From contig JAFTHZ010000006.1 of NCBI GenBank assembly GCA_017457155.1, forward strand, positions 62,001 through 126,000: a stretch of 64,000 nt of DNA, given 5' to 3'. The position numbers and the translations under genes were made by a program. Shown in pieces: positions 45,686-57,345 of this stretch; the stretch's first letter is position 1, and every line of letters starts with the position of its first letter. A model generated the notes under the pieces. It saw nothing but the letters and a program-made list of their open reading frames with translations. It made no database searches and had not been told where the DNA came from. The stretch comes from Ruminococcus sp. (lineage in GTDB: Bacteria > Bacillota > Clostridia > Oscillospirales > Acutalibacteraceae).

Positions 45686-45802
<117 letters not shown>

Positions 45803-45840
45803 ACTATTAATTTGTGTCGCTCTCTTGAAGCGACTCGTTT

Positions 45841-54451: not shown

Positions 54452-55604
54452 TATTCTTACACTTAACAAAATCGCCGCTATCGGCACAAACCGTCTCGGC
54501 GCAAACTATACAATCGGCGACGATGTACAGAATCCCGACGCTGTACTTGTACGCTCCGCTTCCATGCACGACATGGATATGCCTGAGAGCCTCCTTGCTA
54601 TTGCAAGAGCAGGCGCAGGTACCAACAACATCCCCACAGACAAGTGTGCAGAGCAGGGCATCGTAGTATTCAACACTCCCGGTGCCAACGCAAACGCTGT
54701 TAAGGAGCTTGTTATTGCAGGTCTGTTCCTTGCATCCCGTGATGTTATCGGAGGTATCGACTGGGCAAAGGGCCTCAAGGGCAAAGGCGACGAGGTAGGC
54801 AAGCTTGTTGAGAAGGGCAAGAGCCAGTTCGTAGGTCCTGAGATTCTCGGCAAGAAGCTGGGTGTTATCGGCCTGGGTGCTATCGGTATCCTGGTTGCAA
54901 ACACTGCTGTTTCTTTGGGCATGGATGTATATGGGTACGATCCCTTCCTGTCTGTTGATGCAGCATGGAAGCTCAACAAAAACATCCACCACGCAGCAAG
55001 CATGGATGAGATCTTCAAGGAGTGCGACTACATCACAATTCACATTCCTCTCAACGATAAGACAAAGAACACCATAAACGCTGACACCATCGCAATGATG
55101 AAAGACGGCGTTCGTATCCTCAACTACTCTCGTGCAGGTCTCGTAGACTCTGCAGCTATGATCGAGGCACTTGAGAACGACAAGGTAGCAAAGTATGTTA
55201 CAGACTTTGCAACAGACGACATTCTCTGTGTGAAGAACACAGTTTGTCTGCCCCACCTGGGTGCATCCACTCCCGAGAGCGAGGACAACTGCGCTGTTAT
55301 GGCTGCTGACCAGGTTAAGGATTATCTGGAGAATGGTAACATCATCAACTCCGTCAACTTCCCCAACCTCTCAATGCCCCGCTCAGGCGACACCCGCATC
55401 TGTGTTCTCCACTACAACAAGCCCAACGTTATCGCAGCAATCACAAACACAATCGCTGCTCAGGGCGCAAACATTGAGAACATGGAGAGTAAGAGCCGCG
55501 GCGAGTACGGCTACATGGTGCTTGATGTAACAGGCTCCAACGCTGAGGCCATCAAGGCAACTGATGCTCTGGAGGATGTTATCAGAGTAAGAGTTATCGA
55601 GTAA
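54444..55604 (+). CDS. serA: D-3-phosphoglycerate dehydrogenase
   Basis: First step of serine synthesis, NAD-dependent oxidation of 3-phosphoglycerate. 386 residues. Active-site motifs: RAGAGTNNIP, NTPGANANAVKELV, NAD-binding GVIGLGAIGILVAN, the Arg in NYSRAGLVD and His in LPHLGASTPESEDN. A single C-terminal ACT domain (about 315-386, ICVLHYNKPNVIAAITNTIA) suggests serine control. ATG 54444 lies inside the end of serC; a TTG at 54432 is less likely. Together with pgk and gpmI, the window links glycolysis to serine. Confidence 0.95.
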   Translation: MYNILTLNKIAAIGTNRLGANYTIGDDVQNPDAVLVRSASMHDMDMPESLLAIARAGAGTNNIPTDKCAEQGIVVFNTPGANANAVKELVIAGLFLASRDVIGGIDWAKGLKGKGDEVGKLVEKGKSQFVGPEILGKKLGVIGLGAIGILVANTAVSLGMDVYGYDPFLSVDAAWKLNKNIHHAASMDEIFKECDYITIHIPLNDKTKNTINADTIAMMKDGVRILNYSRAGLVDSAAMIEALENDKVAKYVTDFATDDILCVKNTVCLPHLGASTPESEDNCAVMAADQVKDYLENGNIINSVNFPNLSMPRSGDTRICVLHYNKPNVIAAITNTIAAQGANIENMESKSRGEYGYMVLDVTGSNAEAIKATDALEDVIRVRVIE

Positions 55605-55634
55605 TTCGATTCTCAGGTTTTTATATTAATAATC

Positions 55635-55669
55635 AAAAAGACTGTGTCATACGGGCACAGTCTTTTTTT
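55635..55669 (+). terminator. Terminator after serC-serA
   Basis: AAAAAGACTGTG pairs with CACAGTCTTTTT, then further T. Confidence 0.9.
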
Positions 55670-55726
55670 GTATTATCCGCCGAGAATTCTGCATAATATT
55701 TTATGCAACTTGATGCTCAACTTTAC

Positions 55727-55755
55727 TTGACACCCCCTTTTTTTAGGTGTAAAAT
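55727..55755 (+). promoter_or_regulatory. Strong sigma-A promoter of the mgtE leader
   Basis: Perfect TTGACA (55727-55732), 17-bp spacer, TAAAAT (55750-55755). Predicts a transcript start near 55762 and an untranslated leader of about 205 nt before mgtE. Confidence 0.78.
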
Positions 55756-55761
55756 TATTTA

Positions 55762-55962
55762 GTTAGAACATTGTCTTTTTGTTCTGCATATCATGTATTT
55801 AAGAGAGGTGAAAGTTAATGGACGCAGGAAGTAGTACCGGCACTGTTCCCGGGCGAAGTTGCACTTATTTTATATATCGCAGCCATGCTGCGTACATTAC
55901 CTTTGCACTTTAATACCTTGGAACCGTGTCTTTTACTTCCACCTATTAAACTTTAGGAGGAA
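55762..55962 (+). promoter_or_regulatory. Structured mgtE leader RNA, not a recognised riboswitch
   Basis: Small hairpin AGAACA/TGTTCT (55765-55785). A long-range stem joins 55827-55849 with 55920-55940: GGAAGTA with TACTTCC and GGCACTGTTCC with GGAACCGTGTC (10 of 11 pairs). Inside lies CGCAGC-CAT-GCTGCG (55879-55893). The 3' strand TTCCACCT (55937-55944) can instead pair with the mgtE SD AGGAGGAA (one mismatch), so the two folds are exclusive. The conserved M-box core is not seen. Confidence 0.6.
55818..55913 (+). CDS. 31-codon leader ORF before mgtE
   Basis: ATG at 55818 with SD AGAGAGGTGA 7 nt upstream; stop TAA at 55911-55913. Product starts MDAGSSTGTVPGRSC and ends in a hydrophobic stretch (YFIYRSHAAYITFAL). 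The ORF spans the 5' arm of the long leader stem, while the 3' arm starts 7 nt after its stop, so translating ribosomes would open that stem. Best read as a regulatory leader peptide; whether it is made is unknown. Confidence 0.6.
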   Translation: MDAGSSTGTVPGRSCTYFIYRSHAAYITFAL

Positions 55963-55968
55963 AAGACT

Positions 55969-57345
55969 ATGGAAAGGAACTATGTTACTGTCGATGTGAC
56001 CATCGGCAAGCTCCTTGATGAGAAGAAATACAAAACTCTCAAGGACATCCTCAGCACCATGAACGCCTATGATATAGCGGTTCTGCTTGAGGATATGCAT
56101 GACTCAAAAATCCAGCTTCTGTTCAGAATGCTGCCCAAGGAACTTGCGGCGGATGTATTCGTCGAGATGGACGAAGACACTCAACAGTTCCTTATCAAGG
56201 GCTTCTCTGACAGCGAGCTTAAGGATGTTGTTGACGAGCTGTCGGCTGACGATGCCGTTGACATTATCGAGGAGATGCCCGCAAACGTTGTCAAGCGTAT
56301 TCTGCGTCAGGCTGACCCCGAAACCCGCAAACAAATCAACGACCTGCTGAAGTATCCCGATGACTGCGCAGGCTCAATTATGACAACGGAGTTTGTCTCT
56401 CTCAGACCCAACATGACGGTAGAAGAAGCCATCAAGCGCATCCGTCGTACAGGTGTTGACAAGGAAACTATCTACACCTGCTATGTTGTAGGCAACGACT
56501 CCAGACTTATCGGTATCACAACCATCAAGGCTCTGCTGCTGGCAGAGGAGGACGAGATCATCGAGTCTCTCATGGAGACCAACGTCATATCCGTAGGCAC
56601 ACTGGATGACCAGGAGCTGGTTGCACAGACCATCTCCAACTACGACTTCCTGGCTGTTCCTGTTGTTGACACAGAGGGCAGACTGGTCGGTATCGTTACT
56701 GTTGACGATGCTGTTGACGTTATGGTTGAAGAGACCACCGAGGATATCCAGAAGATGGCGGCGATTGCCACCACCGACAAACCCTACAACAAAGTAGGAG
56801 TTTTTGAGACCACATGGCACCGCATCCCCTGGCTATTATTACTTATGATATCCTCCACATTTACGGGCATAATAATCTCGAGCTTTGAAGACAAGCTGGC
56901 CGCATCCATTGTCCTGACCGCCTTCATCCCCATGCTGATGGGTACCGGCGGTAACGCAGGCAGCCAGTCCTCGGTTACTATTATCCGAAGCCTGTCTCTG
57001 GAGGAGATCGAGTTCAAGGATATTCTCTGGGTAATCTTCAAGGAGAGTCGCGTATCCATTATCTGCGGTATCATCCTCGGAGTAGTCAACTTTGGCAAAA
57101 TGCTCCTTGTTGACGGATGGATGCTCCAGAATCCCAGCATAACCCCCACAATAGCCCTTGTCGTAAGCTTAACACTTGTTATCACAATCATTGTGGCAAA
57201 GATCATCGGTTGTTCACTGCCTATGATCGCAAAGAAGTTCAAGCTCGACCCGGCTGTTATGGCAAGCCCCTTTATTACTACCGTCGTAGACGTCGTATCC
57301 CTGCTTGTATACTTCTGGATTGCCACAGAAATACTGGGTATATAA
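55969..57345 (+). CDS. mgtE: Magnesium transporter MgtE
   Basis: Mg2+ channel of the inner membrane, 458 residues, typical. Cytoplasmic N domain (1-130, superhelical MgtE_N with LPKELAADVFVEMDEDTQ), two CBS domains (about 137-255, e.g. VSLRPNMTVEEAIKRIRR and AVPVVDTEGRLVGIVTVDDAVD), plug helix, then five membrane helices with the pore signature PMLMGTGGNAGSQSS. SD AGGAGG lies 8 nt before ATG. Expression probably controlled by the leader. The lipase gene follows after 12 nt. Confidence 0.96.
   Translation: MERNYVTVDVTIGKLLDEKKYKTLKDILSTMNAYDIAVLLEDMHDSKIQLLFRMLPKELAADVFVEMDEDTQQFLIKGFSDSELKDVVDELSADDAVDIIEEMPANVVKRILRQADPETRKQINDLLKYPDDCAGSIMTTEFVSLRPNMTVEEAIKRIRRTGVDKETIYTCYVVGNDSRLIGITTIKALLLAEEDEIIESLMETNVISVGTLDDQELVAQTISNYDFLAVPVVDTEGRLVGIVTVDDAVDVMVEETTEDIQKMAAIATTDKPYNKVGVFETTWHRIPWLLLLMISSTFTGIIISSFEDKLAASIVLTAFIPMLMGTGGNAGSQSSVTIIRSLSLEEIEFKDILWVIFKESRVSIICGIILGVVNFGKMLLVDGWMLQNPSITPTIALVVSLTLVITIIVAKIIGCSLPMIAKKFKLDPAVMASPFITTVVDVVSLLVYFWIATEILGI

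Follow-up and report, generated by a model that had tools for sequence, protein, structure and literature searches.

Introduction

In the literature consulted, the leader open reading frames (ORFs) known to control Mg2+ transporters, namely mgtL, corL and mgtQ, are enterobacterial; this and the other literature below is cited from partial texts. Translation of the upstream ORF is inversely related to transporter expression both for mgtL, ahead of mgtA (PMC11282234), and for corL, ahead of corA (PMC11552253), and mgtL carries Glu2 and Asp4 (PMC11282234, PMC11552253). The mgtQ ORF of Salmonella mgtB, which lies between genes, has eight codons with Asp2 and Glu5 and is accompanied by alternative stem-loops, and the RBS is released translationally (PMC8092293). 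This ORF overlaps stem region 1, a ribosome there frees the RBS, and loss of the mgtQ start lowers mgtB (PMC8092293).

The M-box (RF00380) is known ahead of mgtE, mgtA and Nramp-related genes (PMC4072509). Behind the M-box of Mycobacterium tuberculosis (pe20, rv1805A), a conserved short ORF and a translational platform have been described, and the Rv1805A peptide, with a conserved proline at position 7, is stated to be mycobacteria-specific (PMC12810186). The mgtE motif (SRC-65-1) is a riboswitch candidate reported exclusively from Thioalkalivibrio (PMC11109978). A further study deals with NusG pausing within an mgtE riboswitch (PMC12288461) and has no bearing on the present leader.

Here we analyse the leader of an mgtE gene in a stretch of 64,000 nucleotides of Ruminococcus sp. 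DNA (contig JAFTHZ010000006.1, positions 62,001 to 126,000; hereafter the window, meaning this whole stretch) and its counterparts in related genomes. In the literature searched, which excluded most subscription papers and bioRxiv preprints, the leader was not found described.

Results

Elements of the mgtE leader

The leader is approximately 200 nt long behind its own promoter, as counted from an inferred transcription start, and contains the following elements.

55727-55755, + strand: promoter with -35 TTGACA (55727-55732) and -10 TAAAAT (55750-55755), from a consensus scan; 17-nt spacer, 11 of 12 consensus bases
55805-55810, + strand: SD of the leader ORF (GAGGTG), within GAGAGGTGAAAGTTAATG (55803-55820)
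55816-55827, + strand: A1, the start-codon region TAATGGACGCAG, 5' arm of a putative start-locking helix; pairing supported in relatives
55818-55913, + strand: leader ORF of 31 codons, MDAGSSTGTVPGRSCTYFIYRSHAAYITFAL, with a good SD and a frame conserved in relatives
55827-55849, + strand: A2, GGAAGTAGTACCGGCACTGTTCC, codons 4-11, 5' arm of the long-range stem
55888-55899, + strand: B1, CTGCGTACATTA, complement of A1 (11 of 12 bp, -11.8 kcal/mol)
55920-55940, + strand: B2, GGAACCGTGTCTTTTACTTCC, 3' arm of the long-range stem (partner of A2) and anti-SD segment
55928-55940, + strand: 5' strand of the SD sequestor, GTCTTTTACTTCC, part of B2
55956-55967, + strand: 3' strand of the SD sequestor, GGAGGAAAAGAC, overlapping the mgtE SD (AGGAGG, 55955-55960)
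55969-57345, + strand: mgtE, Mg2+ transporter of 458 aa; TIGR00400 at 478.6 bits (cut-off 232.75), Pfam PF03448 (MgtE_N), CBS and PF01769 (MgtE)

The A2:B2 duplex of the window comprises 18 bp (-22.0 kcal/mol), and the pairing of B2 with the SD (55928-55940 with 55956-55967) comprises 12 bp with one bulged A (-12.3 kcal/mol). The leader as a whole (55762-55975) has an MFE of -59.2, compared with -46.2 +/- 3.97 for its shuffles (z -3.27), and none of 200 shuffles folded as well. A first-pass annotation, made from the sequence alone, had claimed a near-consensus promoter, the 31-codon ORF with its good SD, the long-range stem whose 5' arm lies inside that ORF, and the mgtE SD as a second possible partner of its 3' arm; all of these were recovered, the stem at exactly 55827-55849 and 55920-55940. 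An element beyond that annotation is the third segment, B1, which is able to pair around the leader start codon and is conserved and covarying in relatives. In the window, B1 overlaps a possible local hairpin, CGCAGCCATGCTGCG (55878-55892).

A terminator-like (intrinsic) hairpin at 55635-55667, 3' of the upstream dehydrogenase gene, separates that gene from the mgtE promoter. Directly 3' of mgtE lies a gene for a Lipase_3-domain protein (PF01764; 57358-58584), followed by a lactate dehydrogenase gene. The same genome holds a second MgtE-domain gene (L309), and by eye this gene has an SD-preceded leader ORF, MDGSSSRSKTKVFLYSDFADRFTASAV (MDGSSSRSK...). Also read by eye are CGAAGT, CTGCGTCTG further downstream and a hairpin that might sequester the SD, GCCTTTAC/GTAAAGGAGGC.

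Comparison with known RNA families

No Rfam family matched the mgtE leader above its gathering score. The M-box core, which the first-pass annotation did not see, was not found here either: the RF00380 covariance model gave no match at E <= 10 in 55500-56200 and none in the window's own genome (89% complete), and the Rfam search of loci L001-L020 returned neither an M-box nor a NiCo riboswitch. At E <= 10, six matches occurred in 55500-56200, all of them in 55576-55710 on the terminator of the upstream gene, and the sole match of the window at gathering score was a 5S rRNA (45688-45804, - strand). We therefore reject a plain M-box identity for this leader, which has no aptamer match. Identity as an mgtL homologue is likewise rejected, because the window peptide, MDAGSSTGTVPG, has Asp2 only and no EPDP motif.

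Distribution of the leader in relatives

BLASTN over 98 genomes found the leader in 20, which are the window's own genome, 18 of the 59 other members of the genus and one more distant genome, and tblastn placed all 20 matches before mgtE. A sequence-only model, R1, was built from an alignment of 20 leaders; genomes with R1 matches number 67 of 394 in the order, 34 of 391 in the class and 10 of 299 in the phylum, the weakest matches being partly due to chance. Both searches are insensitive, since BLASTN found the leader in 20 of 98 genomes while direct reading, described below, found it at 28 of 28 loci; the R1 genome counts are thus lower bounds. Among the 59 R1 loci from the order and class (L022-L080), 52 have mgtE by tblastn. 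The other seven are one mgtA locus (L068), one locus cut by a contig end (L024) and five that look like chance matches (L049, L075, L078, L079 and L080). The phylum search added nine further R1 loci, five with mgtE and four (L229-L232) without.

A DNA pattern consisting of an SD plus ATGGACGCNGGNRGTAG was searched in a contig collection and gave 113 matches. In 93 cases mgtE followed within 900 nt, in nine an mgtA or mgtA-like frame followed, and in one, from a Chloroflexi bin (L139), an Nramp-family gene followed (PF01566). Nine of the remaining matches were unrelated, seven of them sharing one common repeat, and one was cut by a contig end. The gene downstream at L138 encodes an Mg2+-translocating P-type ATPase (TIGR01524), and that at L168 gave a weak partial match only. 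The repeated stretch, GGTGACGACTGCATGGACGCAGGAGGTAG, occurs at L085, L086, L108, L111, L120, L156 and L166, where an adjacent Mg2+ transporter was not found; six titled records among these are gammaproteobacterial, and it appears to be a dispersed repeat.

The records matched by the pattern beyond Ruminococcus include Evtepia, Bittarella and Clostridioides. With these pattern matches and the R1 matches across the order, class and phylum, we reject an element confined to one genus.

Both the pattern and R1 presuppose the leader, and mgtE genes of the genus were therefore also collected independently, by Pfam. Matches were present in 50 of 60 genus genomes, and 30 loci were taken, 28 of them with upstream DNA; this sample partly overlaps the BLASTN hits. 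All 28 genes with upstream DNA have before them an ORF of 8-70 codons that follows an SD and whose second codon encodes Asp in 27 cases and Glu in one (L292); one of the ORFs has a TTG start. The same scan upstream of 223 other long genes found such an ORF in 10, two of which begin MDAG and may be true leaders of unrecognised mgtE or mgtA genes.

The leader ORF in relatives

Frames and pairings were analysed on 139 leaders (130 mgtE, 9 mgtA), of which 136 had a distance below 320 nt and 104 (98 mgtE, 6 mgtA) were non-redundant; kinship was handled by this non-redundancy cut alone. The 104 comprise 55 leaders selected by the MDAG pattern and 49 found by BLAST or a model of it, and the constancy of codon 2 in this set is therefore partly by construction. 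MDAG begins 89 of the 104 leaders, including the 55 that the pattern required to do so.

In the six codons after codon 15, stops occur in none of the 104 leaders in the ORF frame, as against 23 and 21 in the other two frames. This frame test and the control genes (28 of 28 against 10 of 223) reject a chance ORF, and by its sequence the leader ORF looks coding. In an alignment of 20 leaders, the four G of its SD and the next A are invariant columns, and the T is nearly so. Past approximately codon 15, residues and length (21-46 aa) vary freely, and the distance from leader start to gene ranges from 116 to 287 nt. In 91 leaders the ORF ends 5' of the SD sequestor.

Three pairings in the leader RNA

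The helix between A1 and B1 joins, in relatives, the start-codon region AUGGACGCNG with a downstream UGCGU(C/U)(C/U)(A/G)U. In 49 of 104 leaders, compared with 77 of 2080 shuffles, the helix reaches 10 bp or more without a gap, and in 50 leaders it has at most 8 bp. Pair counting was done on an alignment of 35 leaders, drawn from 84 of suitable length; this alignment is too poor around B2, and only A1:B1 was counted on it. Two-sided changes are seen in five of the 12 pairs, a number reached by 22 of 500 shuffles; counted by cells they are 27, compared with 8.6 in shuffles, and none of the 500 equals this. Sliding the partner by 1-3 columns lowers the paired cells from 76.6% to 37-51%. Where the B1 helix has 9 bp or more (54 leaders), the leader stop lies beyond B1 in 53 cases, and B1 falls in all three reading frames (30, 16 and 8), which argues that it is conserved at the RNA level.

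The pairing of A2 with B2, tested over codons 4-16, has a mean energy of -27.0 kcal/mol for cognate partners, compared with -22.55 +/- 0.36 kcal/mol for permuted partners. Among the 104 possible partners, a leader's own ranks first for 8 leaders, in the best tenth for 42 and on the poorer side of the median for 27. Against its own shuffles the mean z is -2.05 (n = 104; 8 leaders above 0), compared with -0.30 for a control segment (n = 83). The pairing of B2 with the SD, at a mean z of -1.12 against shuffles (36 of 104 below -1.65, 24 above 0), is the weakest of the three comparatively supported pairings.

A2:B2 and B2:SD overlap by at least 5 nt in 78 of the 104 leaders (55.7 expected from sliding), so that the two stems would compete for B2. 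A1:B1 crosses A2:B2, so that the two, if formed together, would make a pseudoknot. The conservation expected of a real control element, an ORF kept in relatives and a stem with compensatory changes, is therefore present.

Association with M-boxes

The first-pass annotation had set M-box and leader peptide against each other as alternatives, and this opposition did not survive the comparison, since in relatives the leader is often coupled to an M-box. An Rfam search of 20 loci placed eight of nine mgtA or mgtA-like leaders behind an M-box on the same strand; the ninth, L152 (108-207), has a NiCo riboswitch (77.4 bits) upstream of its MDAG leader and no M-box. At the Chloroflexi Nramp locus L139 (4852-5500), an M-box (128.4 bits) is followed by the ORF MDAGGSSGRSR... 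and then by the Nramp-family gene. Where positions were compared, the distance from M-box to leader was roughly 70-290 nt. In the same search, none of the 10 mgtE loci had an M-box or NiCo riboswitch, and no M-box was found in the four genus genomes checked.

Within the order, 33 of 394 genomes have an M-box; eight of these also have an R1 match, and in five of the eight it lies within approximately 110 nt behind the M-box. At these five tandem loci and at L204, the order is M-box, terminator-like hairpin (by eye), leader ORF, and mgtE or mgtA. At L204 the M-box is followed by two successive short leader ORFs (MDAGSRRKYS..., then MESGSKRSPEPDGRH...) before mgtA, and L171 has the same first ORF. 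The position before mgtA and the tandem arrangement with M-boxes make the link to Mg2+ stronger than in the first-pass annotation.

The reverse comparison started from 72 M-box loci, namely the 30 best-scoring of the order, the 30 best-scoring of the phylum and 12 from the class of the Chloroflexi bin. At 41 of the 64 loci with at least 60 nt of room, the M-box is followed by a short ORF that has an SD and an acidic second residue (Asp or Glu). L278, the same place as L139, was scored as a miss because its ORF lies beyond the search distance. Counting related loci separately, 43 of 79 SD-preceded ORFs behind M-boxes have the acidic codon 2. In control regions the corresponding counts are 0 of 10 for the opposite strand, 3 of 25 for upstream DNA and 1 of 12 for the gene interior; shuffles give 7.2%, with such an ORF at no more than three loci per set. 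Such ORFs occur at 38 of 51 loci where the gene lies at least 130 nt behind the M-box and at 2 of 17 with a nearer gene. Codon 2 is GAC in 25, GAT in 11, GAA in 4 and GAG in 3; the use of four different codons indicates that the acidic residue is kept and not one codon. At five of the 12 loci from the Chloroflexi-bin class, the M-box is followed by ORFs beginning MDAGPS.

Some M-box-linked ORFs are acidic or proline-rich early (MESEEGDYY at L234, MESDDDYLK at L239, MDADPEPQMDHP at L244 and MDADPGNRSK at L200), and their starts are closer to the mgtL kind of destabilising sequence.

Discussion

The comparison shows, at the level of sequence, the ORF with its acidic codon 2, the pairings, two of which compete for B2, and an association with M-boxes and with genes for Mg2+ transport. 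We consider that the leader is probably a cis-acting, ribosome-dependent translational attenuator of the Mg2+ transporter, which would act alone here and in series with an M-box elsewhere. When Mg2+ is adequate, ribosomes would initiate on the MDAG... leader ORF and read it, keeping A1 with the start codon, A2 (codons 4-11) and B1 unwound; with A2 occupied, B2 would pair with the mgtE SD, and mgtE translation would be low. When Mg2+ is short, initiation on the leader would be poor, or ribosomes would drop off soon after its acidic Met-Asp start. A2 would then be free to capture B2, thereby releasing the mgtE SD, and the open state would be maintained by A1:B1, which would close the leader start. 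Where the module stands behind an M-box, as it often does in relatives, it would constitute a second layer.

From the elements described above we infer that the leader is translated and that Mg2+ is the signal. The direction of control is suggested by analogy with corL/corA and mgtL/mgtA, and it would fit the anatomy: the anti-SD segment is complementary to codons of the ORF itself, so that B2 would be available for pairing with the mgtE SD whenever a ribosome occupies codons 1-11, and the SD would be open when the ribosome is absent. Early drop-off at the acidic residue is a plausible Mg2+-sensitive step, given the conserved Asp or Glu at codon 2; the demonstrated cases of drop-off, as far as the partial texts describe them, have two acidic residues, whereas 66 of the 104 leaders have no further Asp or Glu in residues 3-12.

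Partition-function folding with a simulated ribosome bears on the direction. Across the 104 leaders, the mean unpaired probability of the SD was 0.28 without a ribosome and 0.21-0.22 with one at codons 4-14; with the ribosome at codons 2-6 the SD became less open in 30 leaders, more open in six and was unchanged in 68. The folding model thus agrees weakly in sign with the proposed direction across relatives, but not in the window's own leader, where the ribosome had essentially no effect (0.18 to 0.16). Hence, of the first-pass interpretation that ribosome movement on the ORF decides whether the mgtE SD is free, the ORF, the stem changes and the competing folds are kept in relatives, whereas the deciding step itself appears only weakly in folding.

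Other readings of the same elements have to be weighed. The nascent chain might arrest the ribosome in an Mg2+-dependent manner after MDAG...GRS, at about codon 14, the stalled ribosome setting the RNA fold. Arg-Ser is present in the first 20 residues of 61 of the 104 leaders and GRS in 43, the Chloroflexota leader MDAGGSSGRSR has it as well, and the CGA of that Arg codon is invariant in the 20-leader alignment. Conservation of the CGAAGT nucleotides may nevertheless be at the RNA level, 43 leaders lack Arg-Ser in this stretch, and a ribosome stalled near codon 14 would cover A2 and so predict the closed state; we regard arrest as unlikely.

The crossing helices, with their comparative support, and the invariant stretches would also suit a riboswitch made of RNA only, in which Mg2+ is bound by a pseudoknot of A1:B1 and A2:B2 and the presence of the ORF is incidental. 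Yet SD, start codon and frame are conserved, codon 2 of the M-box-linked ORFs stays acidic through four codons, and the distance from leader start to gene varies by the range given above. Moreover, an A2:B2 stem stabilised by Mg2+ would be expected to open the SD at high Mg2+, which is the wrong sign for an importer, and we find such a riboswitch quite unlikely.

A small functional peptide, for example one binding the transporter, with the mRNA structure secondary, would account for the conserved N-terminus, much of which the pattern required, and has a parallel in the conserved peptide behind the M. tuberculosis M-box (PMC12810186). We judge it improbable, given that residues and length are not conserved past about codon 15 and that the paired RNA arms covary; the use of all three frames by the conserved B1 nucleotides in particular disfavours a function of the peptide alone. 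That the module senses translation capacity in general is very improbable, for although a mechanism reading ribosome activity would presumably be altered by many stresses and the L152 leader stands behind a NiCo riboswitch and not an M-box, the module precedes genes for Mg2+ transporters and shows coupling to M-boxes.

Our analysis suggests that translation of a small peptide is part of Mg2+ sensing at mgtE and other Mg2+ transporter genes. The leader-ORF module described here occurs in Clostridia, with thinner evidence in one Chloroflexota class as well, and stands before mgtE, mgtA and one Nramp-family gene. It is conceivable that Mg2+ sensing by Met-Asp or Met-Glu leader ORFs is old and widespread, in Bacillota and at least one Chloroflexota class, with many M-boxes in series with such an ORF and the leader alone in this genus; we hold this view tentatively and stop short of favouring it. 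Should the module act in the proposed way, it would join ribosome-based and aptamer-based Mg2+ control, explain in a testable manner why the spacers behind many M-boxes are long, and provide natural material for analysing how early acidic residues make the ribosome respond to Mg2+.

Among described systems, the M-box is found upstream of the leader in relatives, where the leader forms a module of its own, located 3' of the aptamer. The upstream ORF of M. tuberculosis is a regulated output in the published account, as far as the partial text goes, whereas the leader ORF here is a proposed regulator, and residue 7 of the window leader is Thr. SRC-65-1 resembles our leader in that it is a candidate RNA ahead of mgtE in which the base of a stem contains the SD and the start codon (PMC11109978); an upstream ORF is not among the features described in the part of the source consulted.

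With mgtL, of E. coli and Salmonella mgtA, and corL, of corA, the window leader shares a short ORF in the leader of an Mg2+ importer gene, here equipped with an SD, and alternative folds. Unlike them it has no EPDP, the motif of demonstrated drop-off, and the RNA is different; mgtL and corL are described, in the partial texts, as acting through Rho-dependent termination, whereas the anatomy of the window leader points to SD sequestration. A lock on the leader's own start codon, such as A1:B1 would provide, is not among the mgtL or corL features described in those texts.

The likeness to mgtQ, as the partial text presents it, lies in a short ORF with Asp2, alternative stems and translational control of the transporter RBS. 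By sequence complementarity, one stem could sequester the mgtE RBS, and a second, alternative stem would compete with it. The opening of the RBS by a ribosome is where the two would part, since the ORF codons here pair directly with the anti-SD arm and the predicted sign of occupation is opposite to that of mgtQ, which is also the tendency of the simulated footprints. We make no claim of family membership; judged by analogy, the leader most likely works like mgtL, corL and mgtQ, as a variant of leader-ORF control.
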